Shown piece by piece: positions 31,633 to 47,951 of a DNA stretch of 64,000 nucleotides. A program made the translations under genes and the position numbers. Location of the stretch: contig JAFWYF010000015.1 in assembly GCA_017522785.1 (NCBI GenBank), positions 186,001-250,000 on the forward strand, in the 5' to 3' direction. Source of the stretch: Bacteroidaceae bacterium (GTDB lineage Bacteria; Bacteroidota; Bacteroidia; Bacteroidales; Bacteroidaceae). Each line of letters begins with the position of its first letter. The first letter of the stretch is position 1. Below the pieces are notes generated by a model. That model was not told the DNA's origin. It saw nothing but the letters and a program-made list of their open reading frames with translations, and searched no databases.

Positions 31633-33084
31633 TTATAGGCTATCGCCAAAATCTTCACGGAATTTGGCTGCAAGTTTTTCTTGCCAATCTCCTATAGGCT
31701 CTAAACGACCAAAGAAGAAACGTAAGACATTAGGCTCTTCCACCCATTTGAGTCCACCAATAAGATGACGATTGTCATATAGCCATTTTACTCTGTCGGC
31801 ACAATATTTAATTTGTGATAGAGTGAAAACACGACGAGGACAAGCGAGGCGCACCAATTCCATTTCGGCAAAGTGTTCACTGCCGTCAGGTTCACGCTGT
31901 TCCGACAATGTGCCACGTTCCATACCTCTTATGCCACCTGCGATGTAAAGAGCAACAGCAAGTGAACCGGCAGGATATTGGCTTTGTGGCATATCTTTTA
32001 AGAACTCCATTGCGTTAATGTGTGCTCCTAATCCTCCCGCCGGTAAAATCATAGGAATACCGTAAGCATCTAACTCTTTTACCAATTGTTCAATGAAAAT
32101 AGGACCTTGGCTTATAATATCTTCATCCATTGTCTCCAAAAGACCTACTGCCATAGCCTCCATAGAACGTACCTCCATACCTCCGTAGGTGAGGAAACCT
32201 TCGTAAAGAGGTATGAACTCTTTCATCTTTATAATCAGTTTCTCATTGTTGGAAATTATTGCTCCACCACGTGCAAAACCCAATTTACGACTAGAAAAAT
32301 AGATAAGGTCCATTTGGTCGCAAAGTGTACGGGTGATTTCTCTAATGCTCATATTTTTGCATGCCTCTTCTCTTGTTTTGATGAAGTGTAGGTTATCCTG
32401 CAAAAGTGAAGCATCTAGTACAGTAATAATACCATATTTCTTACATAATGCAGCAACCTGCAACATGTTCTCAAGTGAAAGAGGTTGTCCGCCAATGAGG
32501 TTTGTACCCGATTCAATACGTACAAAAGGAATGTGGTCAGCACCAACTTCATTTATGATAGCTTCCAATGCAGGTATATCGAAATTTCCTTTAAATGGCT
32601 CATCGCTTTGCGGTACTAATCCTTCGGGGCGAAGAACCTCTACAACACTTACGCCTCTGCGTGTTATGTGCGACTTGGTTGTAGTAAAATGGTAGTTCAT
32701 GGGAACAACATCACCCGGTTTTACAAATGCTTCGGCAAGAATGTTCTCACAAGCTCGTCCTTGGTGTGCAGGGAGGAAATATTCTGTACCAAAAACTTCC
32801 TTGAGAACTTTTAATAGGCGGTTGCATGTCTCTGAACCGGCATAAGAATCGTCGGCCTGAAACATTGCAGCAACTTGATTATCCGACATTGCATTCACTC
32901 CAGAGTCGGTAAGCATGTCCATATATACATCCTTGTTCTGTAATAGGAATGTATTATTGCCTGCTTCGTTTATATTTTTTACTCGTTCTTCAACTGTTGG
33001 TAAATATAACTTTTGTACTACACGCACTTTGTGCATTTCCAATGGCACTTGCTCTTCCGATTTGTAAAATTTAATTTTAGACAT
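31633..33084 (-). CDS. Tryptophanase-family beta-eliminating lyase (divergent)
   Basis: This 483-residue PLP enzyme matches tryptophanase/tyrosine phenol-lyase along its length: TDSGVNAMSDNQ, DDSYAGSE, LPAHQGRACEN, MNYHFTTTKSHI, GFLTYGGMEVRSM and the substrate-carboxylate PRRVFT. The segment around the PLP lysine reads YFSSRKLGFARGG. The common form I recall is SSKKDxxxxxGG, and the upstream FDSARFAENAYF-type stretch is LDASLLQDNLHF. Substrate preference may therefore differ. True tryptophanase makes indole, pyruvate and ammonia. It is a lone gene beside the phage-derived cassette with no tryptophan permease. Confidence 0.85.
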   Translation of the reverse strand: MSKIKFYKSEEQVPLEMHKVRVVQKLYLPTVEERVKNINEAGNNTFLLQNKDVYMDMLTDSGVNAMSDNQVAAMFQADDSYAGSETCNRLLKVLKEVFGTEYFLPAHQGRACENILAEAFVKPGDVVPMNYHFTTTKSHITRRGVSVVEVLRPEGLVPQSDEPFKGNFDIPALEAIINEVGADHIPFVRIESGTNLIGGQPLSLENMLQVAALCKKYGIITVLDASLLQDNLHFIKTREEACKNMSIREITRTLCDQMDLIYFSSRKLGFARGGAIISNNEKLIIKMKEFIPLYEGFLTYGGMEVRSMEAMAVGLLETMDEDIISQGPIFIEQLVKELDAYGIPMILPAGGLGAHINAMEFLKDMPQSQYPAGSLAVALYIAGGIRGMERGTLSEQREPDGSEHFAEMELVRLACPRRVFTLSQIKYCADRVKWLYDNRHLIGGLKWVEEPNVLRFFFGRLEPIGDWQEKLAAKFREDFGDSL

Positions 33085-33161: not shown

Positions 33162-33211
33162 AAGCAAGTAAATATGTCAAAATTTGTTATTTCTTGTTTA
33201 TAAACTTGCTT
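33162..33211 (-). terminator. Possible terminator after the terminase gene
   Basis: On the minus strand AAGCAAGT (33204-33211), a 34-base loop and ACTTGCTT (33162-33169) are followed by a T-run. The left arm falls in the last terminase codons. The long loop makes this weak. Confidence 0.35.
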
Positions 33212-35219
33212 CGCTTACTATTTTAGTCCTTCTATTGTTATGTTTATTGCCTACAATGTGAGTAGGAAGAGGGTAGTTGTAACATACCCAAATGAGTATT
33301 GCAGTTGCCATGACTCTATCGTCGTGGTTGCCTTCTACTGCTCCCATCTCTTTACCGTTTTCTTTTATTTCATATAAGTCCAGTTCATAGGTTGTCTCAA
33401 TACAACGCTCAATGTATAATTGGTCTCGCATCGCCTTAATGAGAAAGTTTATTACCATTGGTTTTGTTGAAGAATTTGTGTGAAATCCCCAACGACGTGG
33501 GCGACCTTGTTTAATCTCCTGCCCCGATGTGCGACAATAAAGGTTATTGTAATGTCCTGCAATCTCATTAAGAATATATTCGAAATTGTCTCCTTCGGTA
33601 CCTTCTGTTTCCAAAGTATTAGCCTCTATTACAAGTAGAGCATTGTCGTAGGCACGTGCTATTTCAACTGCTTTCCATGCTAATTTGTCATGTTCAATGT
33701 GCCCGTGCCAACATGCTACAATCTCAGGTACTCCGCCATCGAGCATTGCCATGCGGTCTGCCACAACAATACACGAGTAATCGGCTTTGTCCGATACTCC
33801 GCCTACATCAACTGTTACAATATACCGGTCGCGAATATGTTGTTCACAATCGGGCATCAGCCATATCCATAAGCAATTTTCTTTAACATTCTCACCGGGG
33901 AGTGCAGGCACAAAACGGCATCGTTGCTCTATCCTTTCACTTTGTGGTGTTACGTTCTCTGTGGCTATTATATCTCCTTTGAATATTGGTGGAACACATG
34001 TTGAACGCATATTTTGTACATACGATATTTTAAATACTCTGCGTCCTGTACTTTGAAAAGCTTCATTCGCTGTTGATGGGAATTCAGAAAAAAGACGCCA
34101 TTCATCGGGTATCTCACGCCGTTTATCCCGATACCATGCTATTGCTTCCAATGTGGCTCCCAAATTAAATAGTTCTTGCTCATATTCGTTCATGCTATCG
34201 ATGAAACTGCTATAATGATTCTTATCTATTGCTTTGCTATAAAGGTCGATACTATACCATGGAATGAATACAGGTGTAAAGTTGTTACGCCCCTCTATTG
34301 CATCAATCCATGTACGGTGAAAAAAGTTACCCACACCTTTTGCTGTCGATTCCAAAATTTTCATAGTGTATGGTCCACTTGCAATTGAACCGAATATCGA
34401 TTGTACCAAGTCTTCGGGCTTACGTCCTGCTGTAGATTTCCACAAACCAACCTCGGTGAGATGTGCCATGCATATATCTTCGCTTCTTAGAGAATCGGGT
34501 TTTTGTGATGAGCCTAGTGAGTATCGGCTGTTACTCCAACTTATTACACGAGTCTTTGATATACCCTGATAGGGACTAGTGTAAATCTTTTTGCCTTCAG
34601 TTGCCCATTGTGGATAGTTATTTATAACTTTTGCCAACATACCTGCCACAATTGACGATTGTTTCTCTATATCTCCGCATATTACACTATTCCAATTTTG
34701 TTTGTGTACAAGTTGAATCCATAACATATATAGTTGAGTTAATGTTGAACCTCCCCATTGGCGTGCCTTACATAAAATTATATCTATTGGTTTGTCTTGC
34801 AAACGTAGCTTTTCCATTTCGTGTAAATATTTACGCTGTGGCCGGTTTAGCGTGAAAGGGATATCACGCCCTTTTCCTTTGTCAGATATTATTGCCATAC
34901 TCCTTGCCCAATACTCAAAGTCGTGGCATATACGTGTGCGACAAAATTGCAACCAGAGTGCAACAATCTCACGCTGAGAAGCTTTCTTACCGTTTCTTTC
35001 GAATAAGAATTTTTCGGCACCATGTTCTATCAGTTCTGCAATACGTTCATCTTTTGACATAGTAATTGGTAAATATATTTTTTCCAAAGGAAAACCCTCT
35101 ATATTAACCCAATTACGGGCGATGCTCGTTGAGCCTTCGCCCGTAATTGGGTTGTAATATGCAGATATAGATTTCTGACGTTCTAAATTTAACTTTATAA
35201 TTTCGGATACATTCATCAT
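33198..35219 (-). CDS. Phage large terminase subunit
   Basis: This 673-residue DNA-packaging motor protein has about 120 N-terminal residues of unknown type, then an ATPase domain with a Walker-A-like loop at 151-159 (KARQWGGST). A C-terminal RNase-H-like nuclease shows IVTVDVGGVSDKADYS, LLVIEANTLE and NHDDRVMATAI as acidic-site segments. It cuts and pumps DNA into proheads through a portal. No portal gene is recognisable in the cassette. It ends the leftward arm and lies 14 bases after a small protein gene. The frame is intact and both catalytic domains look complete. Confidence 0.9.
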   Translation of the reverse strand: MMNVSEIIKLNLERQKSISAYYNPITGEGSTSIARNWVNIEGFPLEKIYLPITMSKDERIAELIEHGAEKFLFERNGKKASQREIVALWLQFCRTRICHDFEYWARSMAIISDKGKGRDIPFTLNRPQRKYLHEMEKLRLQDKPIDIILCKARQWGGSTLTQLYMLWIQLVHKQNWNSVICGDIEKQSSIVAGMLAKVINNYPQWATEGKKIYTSPYQGISKTRVISWSNSRYSLGSSQKPDSLRSEDICMAHLTEVGLWKSTAGRKPEDLVQSIFGSIASGPYTMKILESTAKGVGNFFHRTWIDAIEGRNNFTPVFIPWYSIDLYSKAIDKNHYSSFIDSMNEYEQELFNLGATLEAIAWYRDKRREIPDEWRLFSEFPSTANEAFQSTGRRVFKISYVQNMRSTCVPPIFKGDIIATENVTPQSERIEQRCRFVPALPGENVKENCLWIWLMPDCEQHIRDRYIVTVDVGGVSDKADYSCIVVADRMAMLDGGVPEIVACWHGHIEHDKLAWKAVEIARAYDNALLVIEANTLETEGTEGDNFEYILNEIAGHYNNLYCRTSGQEIKQGRPRRWGFHTNSSTKPMVINFLIKAMRDQLYIERCIETTYELDLYEIKENGKEMGAVEGNHDDRVMATAILIWVCYNYPLPTHIVGNKHNNRRTKIVSEASL

Positions 35220-35233
35220 GCAATTTTTTTGTT

Positions 35234-35710
35234 TTATATTCCGGCAAGGTCGGTGGAGCGACGTCTTACTTTATTTTTATTGTAAAATATGGCAAATATG
35301 TCTTTTACTTTGCTTAATTCAATATTGTGTATCTGATAATATTCGGCTGTTGATGCCGTCTGTCGCAGGTTTAGCCAACTATAAATGATTTCGTTCACCA
35401 AGTAATCTTTTATTCTTTGGCGCAATATGCTTGTTACCTCTATATTTGTCTTGCCGTTATGTGTAAATGATATACTTACATAATTATCCGTTACATCGAA
35501 TTTAACCGAGTCGAAACGCATGGCAATGCTTGTTGCCAATTCATTTACAGCCTTTTGCAAAAACATACCAAATAACTCTTCTTCGTCGGTGGAACTCTGA
35601 ACTGTATCGGCATCGATATCTTTGCGTTTAATTGCTTCGCCCATGTAGTATGTTTTTAAATCTACCTCTTGCTGTAATTCCTCACGTTTAATAAGAATGT
35701 TGTTTTCCAT
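35234..35710 (-). CDS. Phage cassette protein, 158 aa, paralogue of its neighbour
   Basis: ATG at 35710 is chosen; the upstream alternative is TTG and overlaps the preceding gene. The protein is not recognised. It shares a layout with the next gene upstream: an early T-Y-Y-M-G-E-A-I-K-R resembles S-Y-Y-T-G-E-A-R-R-E there. An acidic S-x-D-x-E-E-L segment and a basic K-V-R-R-R end follow. The two may be paired neck or head-completion proteins, since they precede the terminase. That role is inferred from position only. Confidence 0.6.
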   Translation of the reverse strand: MENNILIKREELQQEVDLKTYYMGEAIKRKDIDADTVQSSTDEEELFGMFLQKAVNELATSIAMRFDSVKFDVTDNYVSISFTHNGKTNIEVTSILRQRIKDYLVNEIIYSWLNLRQTASTAEYYQIHNIELSKVKDIFAIFYNKNKVRRRSTDLAGI

Positions 35711-35711
35711 T

Positions 35712-36224
35712 TTATAGGTCAATTAGGTTGTCGAATGAATTTTCTTTTTCTCTGTGTGGACGCTTGCGTAGTGCAAACATTTCGCGCAGATTGAATATGA
35801 TTTGTTGTATCTCACCTGTAGCAATAGCTGCTTCGTCGGGTTTGTGTTGCTGCATCCACAGTTGCAGTGTACGCATAACTGCATAATTTTCTATCATCAT
35901 TTCCAATTGTGGCACAGTTTCGTCGGGGTAGTTCTGTGGTATGTCAATTATAAAAATTGTGTTTTTAATTTCATCTGTTGTTTCACTGACTTCCGTCTCA
36001 TTTCTGCATAATGCAAAGTATCTCGACAACATTCGTGTTATCTCTCCAATAGGAGTGTTCATGTGGTCGCATAGTTGCTCTTTGTCGTCGTTGGAGGCTT
36101 GTAGTTTCGCTACTGCTTTTTCCGGAAATCCAATCTCTCGGCGTGCCTCTCCGGTGTAGTAACTATGTGTGTATATACGTTGCAACACGTTATTATGGTC
36201 TAATGTTAGTTTTCTCTTTTTCAT
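35712..36224 (-). CDS. Phage cassette protein, 170 aa
   Basis: The protein is not recognised by family. It begins KKRKLTLDHNNVLQRIYTHS, then Y-Y-T-G-E-A-R-R-E, which is repeated in the downstream gene. A Q-A-S-N-D-D-K-E-Q-L stretch and helical middle follow, with a basic R-K-R-P-H-R near the end. The stop lies one base from the start of the next gene. The similarity to its neighbour suggests tandem duplication of a structural protein. Confidence 0.6.
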   Translation of the reverse strand: MKKRKLTLDHNNVLQRIYTHSYYTGEARREIGFPEKAVAKLQASNDDKEQLCDHMNTPIGEITRMLSRYFALCRNETEVSETTDEIKNTIFIIDIPQNYPDETVPQLEMMIENYAVMRTLQLWMQQHKPDEAAIATGEIQQIIFNLREMFALRKRPHREKENSFDNLIDL

Positions 36225-36242
36225 TATATTGTAAATTATCTA

Positions 36243-36659
36243 TTATACTAGTTCTATTTTTCTCTCTTTAATGGATTTGTAAACAAGTCCGCGAAATGTA
36301 CCTTCGTCAATGTAAAAAGATGGTGCCGGTTCCTCAATTATACTATCTAATATTGTGTAATTGTTGCAGGCTTCTTTAATTCTTCTCTTGTATCGTTCAT
36401 ATAACTCTTTATACATTGCCACCTTATTACTATTCACAATTGGCAATCGTTTCTTTCTCATAAGTAGCGATATGAATCGACGGGCATTCTCATAGCTTAT
36501 ATAAAAACGTGGAGCATTCGATTTGACAGCTTCGTGTATAACTTCGCCAATAGTTGTTTCAGGGTCTTTTTTTCTCATATTTTTCAGTGTCTCGAAAAAT
36601 ATTTCAATAACTGCCTGTTTACGCATTTCACTAACTTTTTTCTCTTCAATTTTTGTCAT
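36243..36659 (-). CDS. Small basic protein of the phage cassette, first gene of leftward arm
   Basis: This 138-residue, Lys/Arg-rich helical protein is the first gene of the leftward arm. Distinct segments are APRFYISYENARRFIS, a K-K-R-L-P-I-V-N-S-N-K-V-A-M-Y run, and PAPSFYIDEGTF. I have an impression of related proteins beside Bacteroidales phage-like loci but cannot name a family. Size, charge and position next to the divergent promoter would fit a DNA-binding or regulatory role, or a small terminase-type partner. Both are guesses. Confidence 0.6.
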   Translation of the reverse strand: MTKIEEKKVSEMRKQAVIEIFFETLKNMRKKDPETTIGEVIHEAVKSNAPRFYISYENARRFISLLMRKKRLPIVNSNKVAMYKELYERYKRRIKEACNNYTILDSIIEEPAPSFYIDEGTFRGLVYKSIKERKIELV

Positions 36660-36709
36660 AATAGGTTCTGTTTTTTTCTTACAAAAATATAGCCAAAAAT
36701 GGCTAAAAT

Positions 36710-36769
36710 GTTGCAGAATTATAAAAATGTTTTCAACAATTAATTATGTCGATGTTATAATTCTGCAAC
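36710..36769. promoter_or_regulatory. Symmetric divergent promoter-operator of the phage cassette
   Basis: A perfect 14-bp inverted repeat (36710-36723 and 36756-36769) with a 32-base centre separates the two arms. Each arm contains, facing outward, TATAAT and the overlapping TAATTCTG, which is one base from TAnnTTTG. The two arms would thus carry matching promoters, and the repeat could also bind a dimeric regulator. A shorter AGCCA/TGGCT repeat lies at 36691-36704. Confidence 0.6.
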
Positions 36770-36820
36770 CCAAAAGAGCTATTTGCATCTCATCTTTGCC
36801 AATGAAAAAAATAAATAATC

Positions 36821-37609
36821 ATGAATCAGAACTTTACAAATCATGGACAAGAGGAGGTGAATGCAGTGCAGGCACCGTCGAATGAAATTCCTCAGCAGAG
36901 TAGTGTACAACAGTTTCCCGAAAATCCTTATGAAGATTTTGAAACAGAATTACAAGAGATTTTTGGCGAGGGTTTTAAACTCGAAGATGAATCATCACAA
37001 GAATTGTTGCTAAGACATCTTAGAATCAATCGCGAACAGAACGACAAACTAGCCGATGCTTTGGAGCAAGATCCACGTCTTGCGCAAATGTTGTCGGATG
37101 TAGTAGAGGGTAAAAGAAATGCCCATGCTTCTATGGCTCGCTATTTCGGACGTTCACTAATGGATGTGGATGAAAATAGTCCTGAATATGAAGAGATGAT
37201 GATTGCCGACGAGGAGCGTCGTGAAGAGGTGTTTCGTCTTGCTGAGAACCGTCGTGAGTATGAAGCAAATCTAGAGATAAGTCGTCCTATTATCGAGACA
37301 TTTTGTCGCGATAGGGGCTATGACCCTTCCGACTTTATGGAGATGGTTTGGGAAAAAGTGGTGTTTCCCATTCTGTCGGGTAAATATTCCTATGAGGTTT
37401 GTACTGCTCTCGACCACTCTTTAACATACGAACAAGATGTAGAAGATGCATTTACAGCCGGTAATGTGAAAGGACGCAATACAAATATCCAAAGAATGAA
37501 AGAGGATATAGGTGATGGCTTGCCAAAAGGACTTAATAGTGTTGCTCCCGAAACAGCTCCTGTAAAACGTAGAACAAACAGCCTTATTGAGGCTGCTCTC
37601 AAAGCATAA
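36821..37609 (+). CDS. Acidic scaffold-like protein of the phage cassette
   Basis: This 262-residue acidic, Glu/Gln-rich, mostly helical protein lies directly before the capsid gene. The first 45 residues are low complexity (N, Q, E, P). A conserved-looking middle carries E-I-F-G-E-G-F-K-L-E-D and an R-P-I-I-E-T-F-C-R-D-R-G-Y-D-P-S-D segment. The C-terminus is basic (P-V-K-R-R-T). Acidic body plus basic tail just upstream of a capsid gene is the usual look of a phage scaffolding protein. No direct family match is claimed. Confidence 0.65.
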   Translation: MNQNFTNHGQEEVNAVQAPSNEIPQQSSVQQFPENPYEDFETELQEIFGEGFKLEDESSQELLLRHLRINREQNDKLADALEQDPRLAQMLSDVVEGKRNAHASMARYFGRSLMDVDENSPEYEEMMIADEERREEVFRLAENRREYEANLEISRPIIETFCRDRGYDPSDFMEMVWEKVVFPILSGKYSYEVCTALDHSLTYEQDVEDAFTAGNVKGRNTNIQRMKEDIGDGLPKGLNSVAPETAPVKRRTNSLIEAALKA

Positions 37610-37646
37610 TCTTTAATATTTTTATTAACTATTTAATCTGTTTTTT

Positions 37647-39275
37647 ATGAGAAAATTTTTTAGTTTTTTGAAAGAGAATCCAATGTTTGTTTTTCTTTCT
37701 TTGGTAGCAGTTGCACTTTGTTTCTTAGAGGGTGAAGAGGGCTATCTGATGTTGGCAACAGTGAATGTGGTATCTCCCGGTTCACCTCGTGCTTCACGCG
37801 GAATAGCCGGTTTGCCCTCCCATGCCTATGGTAGTGCAACCACTGTTTCAAATGCTTCGGAACTTAGTAACGATTTTATTGAGCCCGATTTTGACGAAGA
37901 TATCATCAAAATCGCAAGCGACGAGAGCGTAATCGATACTATTAAAAGACGTGTCGATCGTCAGGTGGCTGTAAACTCTTTCGAGGTAAATCACTATATG
38001 ATAGACGAGAAACGTTCCAAGGCATATACTAATGAAACATATACCGGAATAAAAGCAACACGTGCAGAGATTCCTTTCTCCACAACCGGTGAAAGGAAAA
38101 TCTTCCAAGAATATTTTACAGCAATATGTAAAGGTGTTAATGGCTATGACCCTACGGGACAGATTGAACTGCCCGGAGTAGACCTTATGCTCTTTTTTGT
38201 TGGAAAGAATGGGACAACAGAAGCTCCCATCGCTATGGCTGTAAATGGACCTAAAGTAAATCCAACAGATGATTATTGCGTTGTTCCTACTATTCCGGCA
38301 GGCACTGAAGTCATTTTGCTATCATCGGCAGCATACGAAACACAAAAGTTTATAGCACCAAGTACTATTGTACCTGTTCCCGAACGTGTTTATTTGCAAA
38401 AACAGCTTTGCAATAATATTGTAAGTGATTACTTCAAAGCACAAAGAAAAAAGATTGATTTTAGTGAAGCACAAATTGCCGAGGCTGTTGTGCGCCAGTT
38501 CCGTCTCGAAAGTTGTCGTACTGCATGGGTCGGACAACCCGGAAAATTTAAAGTTCAAGCAATGGATGCTTCAATGGGCTATCAGTGGGATTACTTCTCA
38601 AAAGGTTTGCGTTGGCAGTTTAAACGTCAGTACGACCTCTCTTCAACAATTACATTCGCTGATTTAATCAATCTGTCAATGGTGAAGTTCACAGGATATA
38701 ATTGTAGTAAAAAGGCTGTTTGGCTTTTAGGACGTCAACTGCTTAATGACATTCAGAAAATAGACATTACATTACACAAAAACATTTCTATGTCGGGTGG
38801 TAGTGTCTTTGGACTCAAATGTACCCGAATACAAACAGTCTTTGGTGAAATTAATCTTGTTCACGATCCAACTCTCGACGCTCTTGGCTACTCAAATTGT
38901 GGTGGTCTTATAGATGAAAACGGTTTGGTACGTTACTTCATGAAAAACGAAGATACCAAAACCGAAAGTGTAGATGGAGAGGAGGCTAAACGTCAGGTAG
39001 TAATGACTATAGACTGTTTGTGTCTTAAAGGCTATAGCCATATATGGGTTAATGGTGCCGCAGAAAAGAGCGATATACCCGGTGCATCGCGTGTAACAAG
39101 CTCTGCCACATTGCCTGAGTCGCCTAATACAAACGATGTAGTGGTGCTTACAGCCGATGTAAATCATACAGTGAATGATGTATCACAGTTGTGGTTCCCT
39201 GCCGGCAGTGTTGTAACATACACAGGCTCTACATGGGTGGAATATACAGGTGAAATTCTTACTGTTGGTGAATAA
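37647..39275 (+). CDS. Major capsid-like protein with N-terminal hydrophobic segment
   Basis: This 542-residue protein resembles SU10/DUF5309-like phage capsid proteins. The key stretch is a strand-rich block near residues 385-430 (RIQTVFGEINLVHDPTLDAL). Unusually, residues 13-27 form a hydrophobic helix (MFVFLSLVAVALCFL) preceded by basic residues, like a membrane anchor or signal. An internal ATG at 37749 would remove it and start MLATVNVVSPGSPRASRG. The C-terminal 80 residues look like an added beta domain. It is the most abundant structural subunit if particles form. Confidence 0.75.
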   Translation: MRKFFSFLKENPMFVFLSLVAVALCFLEGEEGYLMLATVNVVSPGSPRASRGIAGLPSHAYGSATTVSNASELSNDFIEPDFDEDIIKIASDESVIDTIKRRVDRQVAVNSFEVNHYMIDEKRSKAYTNETYTGIKATRAEIPFSTTGERKIFQEYFTAICKGVNGYDPTGQIELPGVDLMLFFVGKNGTTEAPIAMAVNGPKVNPTDDYCVVPTIPAGTEVILLSSAAYETQKFIAPSTIVPVPERVYLQKQLCNNIVSDYFKAQRKKIDFSEAQIAEAVVRQFRLESCRTAWVGQPGKFKVQAMDASMGYQWDYFSKGLRWQFKRQYDLSSTITFADLINLSMVKFTGYNCSKKAVWLLGRQLLNDIQKIDITLHKNISMSGGSVFGLKCTRIQTVFGEINLVHDPTLDALGYSNCGGLIDENGLVRYFMKNEDTKTESVDGEEAKRQVVMTIDCLCLKGYSHIWVNGAAEKSDIPGASRVTSSATLPESPNTNDVVVLTADVNHTVNDVSQLWFPAGSVVTYTGSTWVEYTGEILTVGE

Positions 39276-39290
39276 TCTATGAATAATTGG

Positions 39291-39320
39291 TATGACGCAC
39301 CATTTTCTGGGTGCGTCATA
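39291..39320 (+). terminator. Hairpin after the capsid gene
   Basis: Arms of 11 bases (39291-39301 and 39310-39320) enclose an 8-base loop. There is no strong T-tail, so it may be an RNA-stabilising hairpin or partial terminator that keeps capsid mRNA in excess. Confidence 0.55.
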
Positions 39321-39336
39321 CATAAAAACTAAAATT

Positions 39337-39759
39337 ATGAAAAAGATAATTACTTACGAGATACATGGACAAGTAGAAAGAAATAGTTATTTTCGAGTAG
39401 GAAAGGCTTTGATACGTATTGAGTTCAAAGGTGGTTCAATTAACTCTGCAGAATGTATTCCTGCACGTTTCATTACCGATAATCCGCTTCTGCAAAATGC
39501 TATCGAGAGTAGCGAATCCTACCGTAGTGGTCAAATCAAAAAAGGCAAGGTTGATGTAATAGAGGATGAACCGGATAAAGTTATTCCTCGAGTTGATTCT
39601 GTAGATAACAGTGCTTTTCCCGATGTCAAGAATATGCAACAGGCACGCGCTCTTTTAATGGCAGAACCATATATGTGCCAATTGTCGGAACTACAAACAA
39701 AGGCGGCGGTAAAGGTCAAGGCTGCAGAAAAAGGAGTTACATTCCCTAATTGGCTATGA
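39337..39759 (+). CDS. Small phage structural-cassette protein, 140 aa
   Basis: The start at 39337 (KKIITYEIHGQVERNSYFRVG) is preferred over an upstream one that would run through the hairpin at 39291-39320. The N-terminal half looks like a small beta barrel (ALIRIEFKGGSI), and the C-terminus has an A-V-K-V-K-A-A-E-K-G helix ending in P-N-W-L. It overlaps the next gene by four bases. It may be a head decoration or joining protein by position; no family is recognised. Confidence 0.55.
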   Translation: MKKIITYEIHGQVERNSYFRVGKALIRIEFKGGSINSAECIPARFITDNPLLQNAIESSESYRSGQIKKGKVDVIEDEPDKVIPRVDSVDNSAFPDVKNMQQARALLMAEPYMCQLSELQTKAAVKVKAAEKGVTFPNWL

Positions 39760-40409
39760 TAACAACAGAAAATTTAAAAGCAAAGGTTCGCTTTTTGCTG
39801 AACGAAGCAAATGACGACAGCGATGTTACACTACTTACTGTTGATACACGTAAGATAGATGATTATATAGAGATGTTGCTCCCCGAAGCTGTACTATTTG
39901 TGCAAAAGAATAGCAATCGTTGCGGAGTGAATACGAAAAGTGCAACCATTGCCAAAGAGAAGATAACCACTGCCGCAGATGGCAGTGGATATCTTCCCTT
40001 GCCCGATGATTTTGTAAGACTCGTAAAACTGCAAATGACAGGGTGGAAACGTCCTTGTAATATACTCTATCCCAATGATACAGCAATTGCATTGGCACAA
40101 GGAAATGTACATACTAGAGCAGGATGGTGTAAGCCTATTGCCGTTCAAGATTATACTGCCGAAGGTTTAAACGCTCTCTTTTTCTATTCATTGCCAGTTG
40201 GAGTTGCACCAAATGTTGAAGCTTTTATTTACGAAGCAAGATATGTTCCCGAAAACGGATTGTCGGGTAACGATGATACTCTGCATGAGGCTGTCGCATA
40301 CCAATGTGCTGCGTTGGTCTTTAATGTTTTTGATAAACGCGATAGTGCTGCTTCGATGCTATCGATAGCGGCATCGCTTTGTAACGGTAATAGTAATAAT
40401 GAAAAATAG
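39756..40409 (+). CDS. Head-tail adaptor-like phage protein
   Basis: This 217-residue protein starts at ATG 39756, overlapping the previous stop; a TTG two codons earlier is rejected. It is mixed alpha/beta, with KVRFLLNEANDDSDVTLLTV at the start, a YLPLPDDFVRLVKLQM strand pair, and a helical end E-A-V-A-Y-Q-C-A-A-L-V-F-N-V. This resembles head-completion or connector proteins of podovirus-like phages, which bind below a portal. The assignment is tentative. Confidence 0.55.
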   Translation: MITTENLKAKVRFLLNEANDDSDVTLLTVDTRKIDDYIEMLLPEAVLFVQKNSNRCGVNTKSATIAKEKITTAADGSGYLPLPDDFVRLVKLQMTGWKRPCNILYPNDTAIALAQGNVHTRAGWCKPIAVQDYTAEGLNALFFYSLPVGVAPNVEAFIYEARYVPENGLSGNDDTLHEAVAYQCAALVFNVFDKRDSAASMLSIAASLCNGNSNNEK

Positions 40410-40414
40410 AAGTT

Positions 40415-40696
40415 ATGGCTGTAAAACAATTAACAATAATAAAAAATGGTACTTTCTGGGAAACTGCTCCTTTGCAGTGTATCGGTGGCGATATAAGAGT
40501 TAGAGTACACAAAGAAGGACTTTACCCTGTAGAAATATTAGTTAGTATAGATGGAGAAGAGGAGTATCTGCGTCACGACGATTTTGGCTTTGATGAATAT
40601 AAATGTGAGATAACAATCGAAGGTGTTATGCCGGGACAGTTCTTAGTGTTACGATCACGTAGCGAACTGACATTGGTGAAAACATTGGAAATGTGA
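40415..40696 (+). CDS. Small unrecognised phage-cassette protein, 93 aa
   Basis: This short, beta-rich protein lies five bases after the adaptor-like gene and seven before the holin. The sequence (AVKQLTIIKNGTFWETAPLQ at the start, VMPGQFLVLRSRSELTLV near the end) suggests a compact beta sandwich. No family or function is recognised. Tight spacing supports co-transcription. Confidence 0.6.
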   Translation: MAVKQLTIIKNGTFWETAPLQCIGGDIRVRVHKEGLYPVEILVSIDGEEEYLRHDDFGFDEYKCEITIEGVMPGQFLVLRSRSELTLVKTLEM

Positions 40697-40703
40697 TATT
40701 CTT

Positions 40704-41174
40704 ATGGACGGAGTTAAAGTTTTTGCAGCATCTTTTTTTGCCAATATAGCAAGTCTGCTATTTCCAATAAGAAACGATATCTTCGGCCTTATAATGCTAT
40801 TTACATTAAATTTTGTAATTGGTTTACTTGCCGATTTGAGCAACCGTCGTGAATGGTCTTTTAAAAAAGCTTTTCAACTATTTAGAGATGCCGCCATATA
40901 TTTTGTGCTGGTTGCTTCTATATATCTTTTGGGACATATAAAAGGCGAAGATGCAACGGCTGTTCAATGTGTATCGTTTCTCATCTATATAGCAATATAT
41001 TTCTATGGAACCAATATTTTGCGCAACGCAAGAATGATAACCCAGCATGGAAGTACTCTGTTCCGTATTCTCGATTTTCTTTACTATGTTCTCAGCCTAC
41101 GCATAATGGAGCATTTCAGCTATTTGAAAGGATATGTCAATGAATATGAAAAAGAGAATAAAACAGTGCTTTAG
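40704..41174 (+). CDS. Phage holin-like membrane protein
   Basis: This 156-residue protein has three to four hydrophobic helices: FFANIASLLF, IFGLIMLFTLNFVIGLLAD, AAIYFVLVASIYLLG and CVSFLIYIAIYFYGTNI. It ends with a charged tail. Size, topology and the following Rz-like gene fit phage holins of Bacteroidota, which form membrane holes during lysis. No endolysin gene is nearby. Its last 41 bases overlap the next gene. Confidence 0.7.
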   Translation: MDGVKVFAASFFANIASLLFPIRNDIFGLIMLFTLNFVIGLLADLSNRREWSFKKAFQLFRDAAIYFVLVASIYLLGHIKGEDATAVQCVSFLIYIAIYFYGTNILRNARMITQHGSTLFRILDFLYYVLSLRIMEHFSYLKGYVNEYEKENKTVL

Positions 41175-41565
41175 TCTGTTGCTTTTTCTGCTTATCGCAT
41201 CGTGCGCAGTAACCCGCTCAGTCGATAATGTAAAACATTCGTTGCTGAGCCGTTCTCAAAAGCAAATTCGCGACAGTGTTTTTATTTATGATAGTGTCAT
41301 TGTACATGCAAAGGCAGATACAGTGTACAAACATCATTGGAAAACTCTCTATCGCGACCGTATACGTATAGATACTGTTTTAGTAACCGATACTATTTAT
41401 CGTGATAGAATTGCTGAACAGTTGAATAGTGATGCTAATGATGATGTATCAGCAAAAAGTATATTTCGTTTTGCATCTCTTGTTTTTCTCTTTGTCGTTT
41501 TGTGGAAGTGTGGTCTGCTCGATGTGGTTTCACAACTGTTGAAGCAACTGTTTATACGTCATTAG
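41134..41565 (+). CDS. Rz-like lysis lipoprotein
   Basis: This 143-residue protein has a lipoprotein signal (LLFLLIASCA, lipidation at C24), a tract of Asp/Arg/Tyr-rich periplasmic repeats (D-S-V-F-I-Y-D-S-V-I-V then T-L-Y-R-D-R-I-R-I-D-T-V), and a C-terminal hydrophobic helix near residues 112-125. Similar proteins accompany holins in Bacteroidota prophages and are thought to act like spanins, linking inner and outer membranes during lysis. Its start lies inside the holin gene; a second ATG four codons later is also possible. Confidence 0.65.
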   Translation: MSMNMKKRIKQCFSLLLFLLIASCAVTRSVDNVKHSLLSRSQKQIRDSVFIYDSVIVHAKADTVYKHHWKTLYRDRIRIDTVLVTDTIYRDRIAEQLNSDANDDVSAKSIFRFASLVFLFVVLWKCGLLDVVSQLLKQLFIRH

Positions 41566-41622
41566 AATAATATAGTAATGATTTTCTCTTATTGTACTAT
41601 TTAATTTAAAAATATAAATCTT

Positions 41623-44517
41623 ATGCAAAAGAGTTTTTCTTTTCGTGGCATAGTTCGCAACACCGACAACTTGTTCGCTCGCGAGGGAGAATGTATGGAA
41701 CTTGTTAATATGCGGGTGTGCAATGGCTCTTTAGAACCAATCGCTCCACCTTTCGAAATTGCACGTTTGCCTGCAGGTTATTCAGCAATATATTATCATA
41801 CATCAGCTTCGGTGTATATGTGCATAACCAGCAAAGATAAAGTCGTACATCTCTATGATATTACTTTTAGCCCACTCTCTACGGCTGTTTATGTTAATTC
41901 GGCACCTTTGCTTTCGAATGAGGCTGTAGATGTACAGCGTATAGAGTTTTCGGGTAACATTGCATGCTTGCTTACATCAAGTAATACCTTATATGCTATT
42001 TACGATAATGGCAAGTATAAATGGCTAGGCGCTTCTCCCAAATTGCCAAAACTGACATTTACCATAGATTCTGTTATTCATAAAGTAACAACTGAGGATG
42101 AGTATTATCAGGGTGTGATTCGTGATAGCGAAAAAGCATCGTTGTATTGGAATAACGCTTCCAAAGGTTATTTCGATGAGTGTGTAGCAAAATTAAATGA
42201 ACAAGGTTATTTCGTCGATAGAGCACTTTTTCGTTTCGCGTTTCGTCTGTTTGATGGTAGTTATGCCTACTATTCACCTATCTACTATGTAGATGACAAA
42301 AACAGTATTAACGGTTTATATCGTGATAAAGGTAACTTCGTGTCTGCCAGAGTGAACACAACAGATACAGTTGGACTGTCAAAGTATAATGCTATGGTAC
42401 AGGGATTTAAACCAACATTTCATTTCTCCGGTTTAAATTTGTCGGATTGGGAGAATATTATAGTCTCTGTCGATATGTTTACATCGGGTTCTATAATGGG
42501 ACATAAAATTGTGAACAATGGAAAGAGTGTTTCATCACGTATCGAAAACGTAAATGAGTCTCCTTCTGATGGATACGATAGTTACGTAAATAAGACAAAT
42601 GCTGAGATATTCAATGATATTTCAACAACTGCATCTTTTTACAAAATTGCTGAATATAAATTGAATGGAGTACTGCAGAACAAAGAAGAAAATGTTTCGT
42701 ACGAAAAACTGGTTTTATGTAATTCACTACCGGCCGATAATGGTACTCTCTCGAACTGTTCTGCAAATTATAGCTATATGTTCAATGGTCGTCTTCATTT
42801 GGCATCCTTACGCGAAAAACTATTCGGTGGTTATGATGGAGATTGTTTCTTACCTGTATCACTTTCATCAGTATATGTTACAGCAACTGTGTATACTGAA
42901 CTAAAAACTTCAAATGGAACTTCTGTGGTAAGAAAACAACATAATGGAAATTTCCCTGTTGGAGTAAAGGATAATGAATATCTTTTGTCGCCATACATTT
43001 CGTATCCCGATTCTCGTGCTGTTAAAATGACATTATCTTTACTTATAAATGATGTCTTTTACACCAAAAGTTTTTCGCTGATACAACACAAAACCCTGAA
43101 CCTCGCCTATTATCTTAATACGAAAGATAGCGGATTAACTCTAAACGTTGATGCTACAAACTCATCTGTTACATCCGTACGAGTCTACTACGAGGATATG
43201 ATAAAATCCTTCTTCTCTTATAAAATAGGTAGTTATAGTATTGTCTACACTGTAGCTGGTGGATGGATGTTTGGCGACAAAGTGTTTGACCTACATACAA
43301 AAGATGGAAGCGGAGAACGCTATCCGGCAATAACATGGAGAGGAACACCGGTAGATGGGGATACAATTATTTTTACGATTGCTAATAGCAGTGATATAGA
43401 AAATGTTGGTGTAGTAGAAGATATAGTCGTGGACTCTACATGGGAAAATAGTTCCACAATGGTAGAAATACCCGAAGTTAATACGATAGAGATACGCAAG
43501 AATGTTTTAAAAGTTTCTGCTGTGGATAATCCATTTCTTTTTCCGGCGATACAAACTTATGCACCGACAGATGAAGAGATAATTGGAGTTTGCAGTAACA
43601 CTGTAGCTCTTTCTCAAGGACAGTTTGGGCAACATCCTCTGTATATCTTTTGTAGTAATGGAATTTGGGCTATGTCGGTAGATGCATCGGGAACCTTTGC
43701 CTATACCGGTTCCTATCCTATGTCGCGCGAAGTTTGTACAAATGCCAATTCAATACGTGGCATAGATGCCGGTGTGGTGTTTATCACTGCAAAAGGGGTA
43801 ATGTTGCTGTATGGAGGCAATATAAAACATCTCTCTTCCTCAATGGATGCAGATACACATCCATTAAAGGTTGTCAGTACAACAAATATATTCAGTAGAA
43901 TTGCCGCTATAGTTTCTTTGAATAATATTTTCCAAAATGAAACATTTCACGATTATCTGTTGTATGCAAATATTGGATTTAATTATTCAAAGCGTGAAAT
44001 AGTGGTTAGTAATCCAGCATACCCATATAGCTACCTCTATTCGTTGGAAAATGGAGAGTGGAGTAAAATATCATACAGTTTTAACTATGTATTGAATAGT
44101 TATCCTCAATTGTTATGTGTGAAGAGTGAATATAACAAAACTATTTTGCTTACTCCAAATAACTATGTTGTAAGTGAGAATTCCGTGTTGCTAATATCTC
44201 GTCCTCTGTTGTGGGGTGGAAAATTATTTAAAAGGGTGTTGCAGATGTTACTGCATGCAACGGTTAAACCGGCAACAGCAGAAAATGCCTTCAATGGCTT
44301 AGCTTGTTATCTTTTATGTAGTAACGATGGCGTAAATTTTAAATTAGTAACCGGTAGTGAACGTCGTGTAGAGTTCTTCGATATGACACTGCCTTATATA
44401 CCAACTCAATCATACCGATATTTTGCCATAGCGCTTGTTGGCAATATATCTACAAATAGTAAAATTAATGCTGTAGAGATGTATATCGATGCGGCATGGA
44501 ATAACCGCTTACGTTAA
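41623..44517 (+). CDS. Large tail-hub / DNA-stabilisation-like phage protein (P22 gp10-like)
   Basis: This 964-residue protein opens FRGIVRNTDNLFAREGECMELVNMRVCNGSLEP, the layout of P22 gp10-type packaged-DNA stabilisation proteins, which close the podovirus neck and have beta-propeller repeats. The body is beta-rich with repeated aromatic strand segments, and it ends NAVEMYIDAAWNNRL. It is the largest gene of the cassette. It would mount on head-completion proteins. No other tail gene is visible. Assignment rests on the N-terminal pattern and size. Confidence 0.6.
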   Translation: MQKSFSFRGIVRNTDNLFAREGECMELVNMRVCNGSLEPIAPPFEIARLPAGYSAIYYHTSASVYMCITSKDKVVHLYDITFSPLSTAVYVNSAPLLSNEAVDVQRIEFSGNIACLLTSSNTLYAIYDNGKYKWLGASPKLPKLTFTIDSVIHKVTTEDEYYQGVIRDSEKASLYWNNASKGYFDECVAKLNEQGYFVDRALFRFAFRLFDGSYAYYSPIYYVDDKNSINGLYRDKGNFVSARVNTTDTVGLSKYNAMVQGFKPTFHFSGLNLSDWENIIVSVDMFTSGSIMGHKIVNNGKSVSSRIENVNESPSDGYDSYVNKTNAEIFNDISTTASFYKIAEYKLNGVLQNKEENVSYEKLVLCNSLPADNGTLSNCSANYSYMFNGRLHLASLREKLFGGYDGDCFLPVSLSSVYVTATVYTELKTSNGTSVVRKQHNGNFPVGVKDNEYLLSPYISYPDSRAVKMTLSLLINDVFYTKSFSLIQHKTLNLAYYLNTKDSGLTLNVDATNSSVTSVRVYYEDMIKSFFSYKIGSYSIVYTVAGGWMFGDKVFDLHTKDGSGERYPAITWRGTPVDGDTIIFTIANSSDIENVGVVEDIVVDSTWENSSTMVEIPEVNTIEIRKNVLKVSAVDNPFLFPAIQTYAPTDEEIIGVCSNTVALSQGQFGQHPLYIFCSNGIWAMSVDASGTFAYTGSYPMSREVCTNANSIRGIDAGVVFITAKGVMLLYGGNIKHLSSSMDADTHPLKVVSTTNIFSRIAAIVSLNNIFQNETFHDYLLYANIGFNYSKREIVVSNPAYPYSYLYSLENGEWSKISYSFNYVLNSYPQLLCVKSEYNKTILLTPNNYVVSENSVLLISRPLLWGGKLFKRVLQMLLHATVKPATAENAFNGLACYLLCSNDGVNFKLVTGSERRVEFFDMTLPYIPTQSYRYFAIALVGNISTNSKINAVEMYIDAAWNNRLR

Positions 44518-44522
44518 AAACT

Positions 44523-44939
44523 ATGGAAATAACAATAAACAAACAAGATGTAATTGAGAATTTACACAAAGTAACAGGAAATCTTGCTCTTAAACTTGGT
44601 GCTCCCGAACTTATTGCATCAACCGAAGAGGATGTCGAAAGAATTGCTCCATTGTGGAATAATGCTTCATTGGATTTATTGCATGTGTTGTCGCCATACG
44701 CCGACATGCTTTTCAATAATAATGGGGTGGTGTATTCACTGGAAATGCCAGTTAATTGGAAAGTATCACAAAGAAACAATTTGTTTATGCAATGTGCTGC
44801 TTATATAAAGCAGGCTCTCGTTGCCCGTTGGCTCGATTTTGTAAAGCCTGATAGTGCTATGCTGTACAGAACACTTAATCAGAATATAGCTGAGGCTATA
44901 CAGCATATTCTCACACTAAGACAAAAACCTGATAGATAG
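44523..44939 (+). CDS. Small phage-cassette protein, 138 aa, last gene of rightward arm
   Basis: This mainly helical protein begins EITINKQDVIENLHKVTGN and continues with an acidic T-E-E-D-V-E-R, a mid segment LEMPVNWKVSQRNNLF, and an A-L-V-A-R-W-L-D-F helix. No family is recognised. Helical proteins of this size are often phage neck or connector components. It lies five bases after the gp10-like gene and stops at the palindromic terminator that bounds the cassette. Confidence 0.6.
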   Translation: MEITINKQDVIENLHKVTGNLALKLGAPELIASTEEDVERIAPLWNNASLDLLHVLSPYADMLFNNNGVVYSLEMPVNWKVSQRNNLFMQCAAYIKQALVARWLDFVKPDSAMLYRTLNQNIAEAIQHILTLRQKPDR

Positions 44940-44973
44940 AAAAAGTCCGGCATGCCGGACTTTTTCTATCTAT
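44932..44973. terminator. Bidirectional terminator at the right edge of the phage cassette
   Basis: A perfect 42-bp palindrome centred at 44952/44953 has a GC core (GTCCGGCATGCCGGAC) and A/T flanks. It overlaps the last codons of the phage gene and precedes the DUF1573 stop. Confidence 0.9.
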
Positions 44974-45483: not shown

Positions 45484-47688
45484 TTAAACACGCTTAACCT
45501 GTTTTACTCCTTTTATCCCTTCTATCTTGGTAATAAGTTTTTTGAGTTTTGCCGTATCATCAATCATAAGAGTCAATGTGCCCGAAAATAGAGTGTCGTG
45601 CGACTCAATATTTATTCCACGCATAATAACATCTTTTTCTTGTGTTATAAGCGATGTTATATTATTTACAATTCCAATATCGTCGTGTCCTACAACACGA
45701 AGTGTAACAGGGTAGAGTGCTTTGTTTTTTCCACTATCGCTCCATCGTGCTTCAATTATTCTGTATGGGTATCGTTCTCGCAGTTGTTTGGCATTTGTAC
45801 AATCTTTTCTATGCACCGATATTCCTCCGTTAATTGTAACAAACCCAAATATCTCATCACCGAATATTGGCGCGCAACATTTCGATAGTTTATAATCTAT
45901 TCCTTTTAAATTCCGTTCAATAACCAGTACATCGTTTGAAGCACCGGTCTCTTTGTCGGTTATAAGAGTGAAATCTTGTGCACTTTGAACTGCTTCGTTG
46001 CTCTCCGGGTTTGCAATCTCGTTATAACGCTTATAAATGTCGGTAATGTCGATACCCCCTTCAGCAACTCGTTGATAGAAATCGCTCAGACGCTTGTAGC
46101 CCATTTTGCGTATGAGATGGTCCATCATAGACTCATCATACTCTATTTTATGGTTCTTGAATTTGCGTATTAGCATTTCACGAGCCATGTCAGCCTGACG
46201 TGCTGTGATATCTTTGAGTGCCTGACGTATCTTTGAGCGTGCGCGGCTGGTTTGTGCAATATTCAGCCATGCTTGCTTTGGTGTTTGACTGTTTGCTGTT
46301 ATAATCTCTACTTGGTCGCCATTGTTCAGTGTGTGTCTGATAGGAACATTACGCCCATTAACCAATGCACCTGTACATTTGCTTCCAATGCCACTATGTA
46401 TGCAGAATGCAAAATCGAGAATTGTTGCTCCTTTGGGTAAACGGAAAAGGTCTCCTTTGGGAGTGAAAATGAAAATCTCATCTTTGTAGAGCTCCATTTT
46501 AAACTTATTCTCATTAACCTCTTCTTGTGCAAGATGCTCCAATGTATCACGAATCGATGCAAGCAGGTTGTCGAGCCCCTTTTCACTTTTAATACCTTTG
46601 TATCTCCAGTGTGCAGCCAAACCATGCTCGGCAATGGCATCCATTCGTTCTGTACGAATCTGTACCTCAACCCAACGACCTTCGGGGCCCATAACAGTAG
46701 TGTGTAGAGACTCATAACCATTGCTTTTGGGTACCGATAGCCAATCGCGCAAGCGATGTGGGTTAGGAGTGTACATGTCGGCTATAATTGAGTAAACTTG
46801 CCAACATTCGCTCTTTTCGTTAACGATTTCGCTATCCAAAATTATACGTATTGCAAATAAATCGTAAATGTTTTCAAACGGCAACTTCTGGCGTTTCATC
46901 TTCTGCCAAATAGAGTTAATGGATTTTGTGCGTCCCTTAATTCTGAATTTTAGATGTGGGTGCTTGCGTAACTCTAATTCAATTGGACGTATGAACGATG
47001 CAATATAATCCTCACGTGATGCTGCTGTCTCTTCCAATTTTTTGCTCAAATCAGCATATATTTCGCTCTCTGTATATCGGAGTGATAGGTCCTCCATTTC
47101 CGACTTTATTTTGTAGAAACCGAGTTTGTGAGCAAGGGGAATATATAATTTTGATGCTTCGTTTGCCACCTGTTTGCGTGCTTCTATATTATCGTAATCA
47201 AATAGACGACGCAGTAGAACCAAACGGCTTGCTATCATTATGAGAATAATGCGCATGTCATTAGCGAACGATAACAATAGGTTCCTGAAATTTTCACTTT
47301 CAATGGTTGGACTTTTTTCGTATAGTGCATTAATTTGTGTCAGATTTGCCAAAATCTTAGTGGTATTTTCGCCACAGATAGTAGTAATCTCATCCATACC
47401 TATTGTGCCAAGTTCAACACAACGGCTCAACAGAATGCTAATTATTATCTCGCGATGAAATCCAATCTCTTGTCCAATAAGTTCGGCTGTTTGCATGTCG
47501 AGAATAATTGGATTGAATCCAAAACTGTCGCGTGTAATTTTACCTTCATTTATAGCTTTTGTAATAGCCTCCTTAATAAATCGGTAATCGCTCTTATGTA
47601 ATTCGCCAAGAGTCTCTTTACGAAGTGTGCGACATAGTTTAAATAGTTCTTCGCGCTCACAATTTCTAAATAGGTTCACATCCGACAT
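45484..47688 (-). CDS. relA: RelA-type (p)ppGpp synthetase with inactive hydrolase domain
   Basis: The start MSDVNLFRNC at 47688 gives 734 residues; a start three codons earlier (47697) is also possible. A longer upstream frame runs through AT-rich noncoding sequence and is rejected. The HD hydrolase domain has lost its key residues: positions equal to His, His-Asp and Asp read N59, S88-R89 and S154. The synthetase site is intact: KGRTKSINSIWQKM at 251-264, D276, SVPKSNGYESLHTTV and E341 in VEVQIRT. TGS, zinc-finger-like (KCCAPIFGDE) and ACT domains follow. It should make but not degrade the stringent alarmone. Confidence 0.93.
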   Translation of the reverse strand: MSDVNLFRNCEREELFKLCRTLRKETLGELHKSDYRFIKEAITKAINEGKITRDSFGFNPIILDMQTAELIGQEIGFHREIIISILLSRCVELGTIGMDEITTICGENTTKILANLTQINALYEKSPTIESENFRNLLLSFANDMRIILIMIASRLVLLRRLFDYDNIEARKQVANEASKLYIPLAHKLGFYKIKSEMEDLSLRYTESEIYADLSKKLEETAASREDYIASFIRPIELELRKHPHLKFRIKGRTKSINSIWQKMKRQKLPFENIYDLFAIRIILDSEIVNEKSECWQVYSIIADMYTPNPHRLRDWLSVPKSNGYESLHTTVMGPEGRWVEVQIRTERMDAIAEHGLAAHWRYKGIKSEKGLDNLLASIRDTLEHLAQEEVNENKFKMELYKDEIFIFTPKGDLFRLPKGATILDFAFCIHSGIGSKCTGALVNGRNVPIRHTLNNGDQVEIITANSQTPKQAWLNIAQTSRARSKIRQALKDITARQADMAREMLIRKFKNHKIEYDESMMDHLIRKMGYKRLSDFYQRVAEGGIDITDIYKRYNEIANPESNEAVQSAQDFTLITDKETGASNDVLVIERNLKGIDYKLSKCCAPIFGDEIFGFVTINGGISVHRKDCTNAKQLRERYPYRIIEARWSDSGKNKALYPVTLRVVGHDDIGIVNNITSLITQEKDVIMRGINIESHDTLFSGTLTLMIDDTAKLKKLITKIEGIKGVKQVKRV

Positions 47689-47951
47689 AATCAGCATTTT
47701 TATAGTTTTTACACTCTTTATGCGCGAAGTTAATTTATAAATTTTTAAATAATTGTTTTTTTTACCTCTTTTTAGAAATTTATTTATATTTTTGCCATAA
47801 TTGGCAATGAAGTGTGTAAAAAGTATTAAATTATACTTTGCATATTTTACTCGTTTGCTGCACTGTTTGTAGTAAACAGCAAATCTCTCCGAGTTAATTC
47901 GGTATGATTTTTGTTTTGGCAATAATTGTAGAACCTAATAACATAACAGCT

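Follow-up and report, generated by a model that had tools for sequence, protein, structure and literature searches.

FpGTA of Faecalibacterium is the described system closest to the one treated here. This gene transfer agent (GTA) is podovirus-like and near-universal in its genus, has no phage replication genes described, and consists of two operons about 125 kb apart, the second holding the lysis and fibre genes (PMC12946183). Particles, DNA of about 9 kb and proteomics have been demonstrated for it, and its authors present it as the first GTA of podovirus-like morphology, in an account that also mentions reported lateral transduction in Bacteroides (PMC12946183). Recognising GTAs is difficult, since they resemble prophage remnants and their genes are spread over several loci (PMC11841831). 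Here we analyse the window, a 64,000-nucleotide stretch (G000:C10:186001-250000) of a Bacteroidaceae genome, G000, of 2.1 Mb in 40 contigs. Its phage-derived cassette at 33198-44939 provides, with a probability of roughly 0.7, the head, packaging and lysis functions of a short-tailed phage that was domesticated and whose genes now form a dispersed particle system, most likely a GTA.

Compared by description only, the system shares with FpGTA a podovirus-like character, near-universality in a genus, the lack of described phage replication genes, and homologues of terminase, portal, scaffold and capsid (PMC12946183). It differs in phylum and host and in having at least five loci where FpGTA has two; and whereas FpGTA particles have been demonstrated, the present system is known from its genes alone. 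RcGTA/GafA, as described in PMC6363796 and PMC9662315, resembles it in dispersed loci and mostly vertical inheritance; there a single activator directly binds the promoters of the structural and lysis genes as well as its own. RcGTA is unlike it in having another phage ancestry, with an HK97-like capsid, and in its regulators, CtrA/GtaR/GafA there as against a CI/LexA-like repressor here (PMC6363796, PMC9662315).

Three of the six features that PMC9662315 gives for GTAs are seen here, and the others lie wholly or partly beyond sequence. The proteins derive from caudoviricetes (terminase, P22-type portal, SU10-like capsid, phage homologues in the same order). The genes are fully endogenised across multiple loci, as GTA genes often are: at least five in G000, joined by one promoter element. 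Inheritance is mostly vertical, co-diversifying with the host. The remaining features are encapsidation of mostly random host DNA, a genome that cannot be fully packaged, and delivery of DNA to other cells. The loci lie on contigs C5, C7, C10 and C17, so one packaged piece could probably not hold them all, depending on head capacity. A maintained, co-regulated, dispersed phage-derived particle system is well supported; from its sequence it is likely a GTA in the strict sense, and its particles probably move fragments of their host's DNA from cell to cell. Among the matches listed in our literature searches, none described a GTA from Bacteroidota.

At least five loci and one promoter element

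The particle genes of G000 occupy at least five loci: A is the window cassette; B (C17) holds the portal, three ejection-like proteins e1-e3 and a divergent 81-aa gene; C (C7) comprises a CI/LexA-like repressor and its partners of 129 and 68 aa; D, also on C7, is a fibre-like gene; and E (C5) is an endolysin. At locus A, four leftward genes (terL, two of phrog_19255 type, one of phrog_27246 type) and nine rightward genes (scaffold position, capsid, a small gene, adaptor, a second small gene, holin, spanin-like, 964-aa tail protein, 138-aa gene) diverge from a promoter region at 36660-36820 (Table 1). An earlier note on this DNA had counted 13 intact genes here, and every frame is indeed present and open. 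It had recognised no portal, integrase or repressor, and Pfam and PHROGs name none within 33198-44939. Two of its suggestions, a domesticated GTA-like particle and a split locus, are supported: the same genome has a portal on C17, an endolysin on C5 and a fibre-like gene on C7.

The portal lies at G000:C17:229354-231357 (Pfam P22_portal, 4.5e-43), and the portal of Bacteroides phage BS-TP4 matches C17:229435-231270. A search at E <= 1 found homologues in 38/41 genomes of the genus, every one with a match of 4.5e-41 or better. The genes e1, e2 and e3 precede it; phage homologues are known for e1 and e3, and residues 863-997 of the giant e3 match a phage giant-protein family. An HExxH motif in the giant protein was considered and dropped (0/21). 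BS-TP4 gp14 (2645 aa) had no detectable homologue in G000, in a search run without a positive control genome. The host gene ligA lies within 2 kb of the portal in 22/38 genomes, is far in one and was not scorable in 6. The ORF listings of loci A and B in G000 include no integration or replication gene, integrases not having been searched for genome-wide. In G019 (L057:3765-4961) a tyrosine-integrase gene adjoins the portal, the sole case among the regions read with an ORF listing.

We count the 81-aa gene divergent from e1 (L050:8339-8584) as part of the system and not as host flank, because its promoter carries the shared element in 30/34 genomes. It lies within 1 kb of e1 in 33/38 genomes, the remaining five being not scorable, and has 28 invariant residues among 29 sequences. 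Profile matches to PDB (best 0.021), PHROGs and Pfam are all weak; our guess is a small terminase.

Loci D and E hold the fibre-like and endolysin genes. The C-terminal part of the 266-aa locus D protein matches a fibre-like protein of a prophage (G009:C6), and this match together with a reading of the sequence makes it fibre-like; Pfam and PHROGs give it no name. Matches occur in 20/41 genomes at 30-52% identity outside G000, some of them weak (E up to 9e-4). The 133-aa endolysin-like protein on C5 is 45% identical to the annotated endolysin of phage BF1-TP2 and 62% to a prophage gene, with relatives in 19/41 genomes. A prophage at G016:C128 has a portal 63% identical to that of BS-TP4 and an endolysin 62% identical to locus E.

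A shared promoter element joins these scattered loci. The 12-mer TAATTCTGCAAC is present in both divergent cassette promoters and in the e1 promoter. It occurs six times in the 2.1 Mb of G000, and its backward-read control not once: locus A has two of the sites and locus B one, another separates the repressor and 129-aa genes, and a fifth stands upstream of the 266-aa protein; the sixth, on C32, has no explanation. When as many as three mismatches were allowed, the element was found at 63 sites and the control at 26. The four sites with 0-1 mismatch were A-right, B, D and A-left; of six with two mismatches, one was locus C, one lay 59 bases upstream of the endolysin-like gene, and four have no explanation. 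Within a single genome, the promoters of A and B have 17-20 bases in common in the case of G000 (17), G004, G011, G020, G023 and G031; in many other genomes the strings they share are only of chance length.

A matrix carried the element across the genus. We built it from 57 pattern-picked sites upstream of the scaffold gene and e1 and counted scores of at least 8 as matches; counts for those two genes are partly circular because the matrix was built from them, and leave-one-genome-out matrices gave 29/30 and 31/34. Outside the building set, matches preceded the terminase operon (24/33), the fibre-like gene (12/19, with some weak homologues and uncertain start codons) and the 129-aa gene (4/17). 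Controls were low: ligA 3/23, maeB 0/19, dapA 0/21, c_190 0/8, repressor 1/18, holin 0/25, g7 0/30, tail protein 1/27, portal 0/37 and terminase 0/33. At the endolysin 4/20 loci score at least 8, and the best site starts exactly 59-60 bases upstream in 10/20.

A repressor gene may set the switch. Relatives of it occur in 39/41 genomes (the G029 match is weak, 7e-6), and many of them are next to the cassette's tail end; in 22/38 genomes terminase or portal is no more than 25 kb away. The G000 protein (C7:134999-135637) has a Peptidase_S24 domain (2.2e-9) and matches phage repressors. An Ala-Gly site, a serine and a lysine are invariant in 15/15 aligned sequences; from LexA and CI we take these to be cleavage site and catalytic residues, and by the same analogy the repressor may respond to DNA damage. 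A palindrome (Table 1) stands upstream of g4 in 19/33 genomes, of the repressor in 9/18 and of e1 in 0/34, and is weakly indicated as its operator. The 129-aa partner is our guess for an activator; its structure model (mean pLDDT 80.8, pTM 0.60) has a long helix and a strand-rich part.

We infer a sequence of events from these parts. A trigger signal, perhaps DNA damage by analogy with LexA and CI, would lead the repressor to cleave itself, whereupon an activator, perhaps the 129-aa protein, would act at the shared element and switch the loci on together. Heads would fill with host DNA, since the dispersed genes could not all fit into any one packaged piece. The cell would then be lysed by holin, endolysin and spanin, and the fibre would guide particles to kin.

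Inheritance, selection and the competing explanations

The system is nearly universal in its genus and mostly inherited with the host. A capsid scan of named genomes gave 42 loci, all labelled Bacteroidaceae or Bacteroidales bacterium, from samples whose names are mostly of ruminant hindgut. Orthologous terminase was found in 35/37 genomes (rpoB, for comparison, in 30/41), and terminase and portal are mostly single copy. The prophage regions G009:C6 and G016:C128 were excluded from the orthologue, dN/dS and tree sets. Terminase, capsid and portal trees agree with one another in 15-17 of 24-26 splits with at most one supported conflict. Cassette trees agree partly to well with host trees: ligA plus maeB against terL plus portal plus mcp gives 7/9 splits and 6/6 strong ones (n=12), and rpoB plus ligA 5/5 splits (n=8). 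As ligA and maeB lie near locus B, they are not fully independent host markers; rpoB and ligA themselves have only 2/10 splits in common.

Purifying selection acts on these genes. Median dN/dS, from pairs with dS below 1.5 (most pairs being saturated), is 0.050 for capsid (42/378 pairs), 0.084 for terminase (30/561), 0.082 for portal (13/630), 0.091 for holin and 0.113 for scaffold (4 pairs), and g3 reaches 0.49; the host genes ligA and maeB give 0.046 and 0.024. The spanin, e2 and e3 frequently give no more than partial alignments. The earlier note had proposed comparing synonymous with non-synonymous change across relatives: dN/dS is far below 1 and very few frames are broken. Nor did we meet what it had named as damaging to its reading, since no portal lies nearby and the site is not a variable one in a single strain.

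Several observations weigh against a GTA. Neither particles nor packaged DNA have been observed. Element scores are imperfect in the source genome itself, which is the lone scaffold miss (7.7) and where the matrix picks another string than the 12-mer upstream of e1. No helix-turn-helix is evident to the eye in the 129-aa model, so this protein may not be the activator. Despite sufficient sequence, ligA is absent beside the portal in 9/38 genomes. Holin, spanin and the 964-aa tail protein were not found at locus A, the only locus searched for them, in G002, G025 and G029, whether through loss, strong divergence or a move elsewhere. Finally, rpoB alone recovers 7/15 splits of the cassette tree and contradicts 2/5 strong ones (n=18).

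A killer particle would have the same genes. Such a domesticated, PBSX-like particle (the comparison is as stated in PMC12946183) would be filled with DNA and kill competitors without useful DNA delivery; the gene content would serve it equally, and a fast-evolving fibre-like gene suits a weapon as well as a carrier. We consider it unlikely, though worth keeping in view, because conservation is among the highest in terminase motifs and head genes, which argues that the filling of heads with DNA matters. In terL, the ATPase and nuclease motif residues K151-T159, E256, D471 and E532 are invariant in 34/34 genus copies and D633 and D634 in 33/33.

An ordinary temperate phage would have one contiguous genome with integration and replication genes, its parts here separated by assembly gaps or recent rearrangement. 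Fragmented metagenome-assembled genomes give this some room, as do the true prophage relatives at G009:C6 and G016:C128 and the 9/32 genomes with terminase and portal on one contig, 18-109 kb apart. Yet in G004, G036 and G023 a complete ATP synthase operon (genes named from sequence) sits between portal locus and cassette. In G000 the two loci are on different contigs, each well inside a long one. Near-universality in mostly single copy and the lack of integration or replication genes among the ORFs of loci A and B further make this explanation very improbable.

Decaying prophage remnants would also lack integrase and replication genes at loci A and B, and a few partial copies exist: the scaffold is partial in 1/28 copies (G005), and the G018 terminase match counts one internal stop. 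This reading is not supported and stands little chance, as capsid (28/28), terminase (34/35) and portal (36/38) are full length, the rest being cut by contig ends, dN/dS is far below 1 and the promoter element is retained at scattered loci. Slimmest of all is the mobile, helper-dependent satellite borrowing another phage's portal, which the earlier note had entertained and which the window cassette, itself without a portal, might suggest: it is not supported, for portal, fibre-like gene and endolysin are all present in the genome itself, the genes are near-universal and mostly single copy, no integrase is among those read at loci A and B in G000, and e1 has the same left neighbour in 33/33 scorable loci.

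Features of the cassette and its phage relatives

Individual labels of the earlier note fared differently (Table 1). The terminase match is firm in PHROGs, although the Pfam profile Terminase_6N has no match anywhere in G000. Capsid, adaptor and holin stand as matches whose window proteins score below Pfam cut-offs; the capsid is strengthened through relatives, 14/30 members of its alignment matching SU10_MCP at E <= 0.01 and the BS-TP4 capsid at 1.5e-29. The supposed Rz-like protein is better read as a one-protein spanin. The 964-aa protein, called gp10-like, is a homologue of BS-TP4 gp26, a label by homology and not by fold, and would be a nozzle or stabilisation protein; PDB sequence searches with it and with the capsid gave no match. 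Pfam and PHROGs were both applied to g7, g9, the spanin-like gene and the holin.

Table 1. Features of locus A, with positions in the window
Feature	Position	Strand	Evidence
terL, large terminase, 673 aa	33198..35219	-	PHROG terminase 1e-21
g2, 162 aa, phrog_19255 type	35234..35722	-	PHROG 1.1e-4
g3, 170 aa, phrog_19255 type	35712..36224	-	PHROG 3.2e-9
g4, 138 aa, first gene of leftward operon	36243..36659	-	phrog_27246 8.5e-13; phage homologues
-7-like element TATTTTTG, leftward promoter (presumed promoter type)	36682..36689	-	sequence
Palindrome TAGCCAAAAATGGCTA, possible repressor operator	36690..36705	.	weak; 4 sites in G000 vs 8 for control
Shared promoter element TAATTCTGCAAC, leftward copy	36710..36721	-	sequence, genome count
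Shared promoter element, rightward copy	36758..36769	+	17 bases identical to portal-locus (e1) promoter
-7-like element CATCTTTG, rightward promoter	36791..36798	+	sequence; position common to other genomes
Scaffold-position protein, 262 aa	36821..37609	+	phrog_22323 1.1e-14; same-position phage homologues
Major capsid protein, 542 aa	37647..39275	+	SU10_MCP 20.1 bits vs cut-off 24.1; phage homologues
g7, 155 aa, conserved head-region protein	39292..39759	+	no PHROG or Pfam match; phage homologues
Adaptor-like, 219 aa	39750..40409	+	SU10_adaptor 1.1e-4, 23.2 bits vs cut-off 27
g9, 93 aa	40415..40696	+	present in 19 genomes
Holin, 156 aa	40704..41174	+	Phage_holin_4_1 0.0012, 19.4 bits vs cut-off 22.2; phrog_15037 1.3e-9
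Spanin-like lipoprotein, 143 aa	41134..41565	+	lipobox and C-terminal hydrophobic stretch by eye; 48% to gene of prophage G009:C6
Tail protein, 964 aa	41623..44517	+	phrog_32516 6.4e-52; phage homologues
g13, 138 aa, distant phrog_19255 relative	44523..44939	+	PHROG comparison
Inverted repeat with A and T runs, likely two-way terminator	44940..44965	.	sequence

Phage relatives keep in one piece what is dispersed here. Three Bacteroides phages match the cassette: BS-TP4 and BKO1-TP3, which carry integrase and repressor, and BF1-TP2, with a transposase in the part read. In their records portal and terminase are neighbours; scaffold position, capsid and adaptor come next, and farther on there are lysis genes and a tail protein of 900 aa. 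The gene order of the cassette agrees with theirs, more than chance would give. Their capsids are 24-25% identical to that of the window, and those of four IMG/VR contigs 62-64%, the latter contigs grouping portal, terminase, scaffold, capsid and adaptor into a single block. Both sets have these five homologues in the same internal order as here, along with homologues of tail protein, giant protein and endolysin, but contiguously. Judged by gene content and order, the window cassette is such a phage block with pieces missing. A similar promoter element stands at some IMG/VR loci: scores upstream of the scaffold are 12.2 in two contigs and -1.8 in the other two, and upstream of g4 9.2-15.2 in all four. 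The nearest relative seen besides the genus copies is the prophage-like region G009:C6 of the same genus, with many phage-type genes and a capsid 71%, portal 58% and terminase 59-62% identical to the system's.

Housekeeping genes flank the cassette, as the earlier note had said: named from their translations, they are a tryptophanase-like gene (31633-33084) and a RelA/SpoT-like gene (45484-47922). The tryptophanase-like gene is also near the cassette in G009 and has a copy in G035, so a move of locus A may be common to these genomes.

A second capsid lineage and the meaning of the system

A second capsid lineage, which we take to be older, occurs in the order. A capsid search of 393 Bacteroidales genomes matched 36, G000 included; five listed genomes of other genera in the same family gave no capsid match, and the window lineage is confined to one genus within the searches made. 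Regions L305-L327 hold small scaffold-capsid clusters amid housekeeping genes in other Bacteroidales families. Fumarase lies beside the scaffold gene in 12/23 regions read, at 227-457 bases in 11 and 3.5 kb in one (f29 2/5, f60 1/1, f67 3/3, f86 1/1, f105 5/5, the last confirmed by Pfam). In two f29 regions (G327, G386) the cluster adjoins an ExbD-like gene instead. In f22, an aminopeptidase-like gene lies about 1.2 kb from the capsid in 5/7 regions, four of these also having ligA about 2.3 kb away on the opposite side; the other two are prophage-like.

The capsid tree places this lineage apart from the window. Among 37 capsids, the older families group together with modest support (69 with f26, 75 without; f29-f60-f67 99); this group is separate from the three Bacteroides phages and distant from the window lineage. 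Their promoters are without the window element (best matrix score 1.5 in nine regions). In one f22 genome, G057, the terminase is on a different contig, and its two separated loci share no string longer than in shuffles. The arrangement suggests a second, older domestication. We lean, by a modest degree, towards an SU10-like short-tailed phage group having been domesticated at least twice in Bacteroidales, in the window lineage of one genus and in an older lineage of f29, f60, f67, f86, f105 and f22.

The host genus comprises uncultured ruminant-gut bacteria in which particle genes are inherited much like ordinary genes. The shared promoter element let the scattered parts of the system be located from sequence alone, which is a usable method. 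Should two domestications be right, GTA-like systems would be widespread but unrecognised in Bacteroidales, while control of the window lineage would be of CI/LexA type and its small terminase may be an 81-aa protein that has no DNA-binding domain. If host DNA is what the particles carry, they would represent a GTA lineage in a phylum with none among the matches listed in our literature searches, and a candidate means by which gut Bacteroidales exchange genes.

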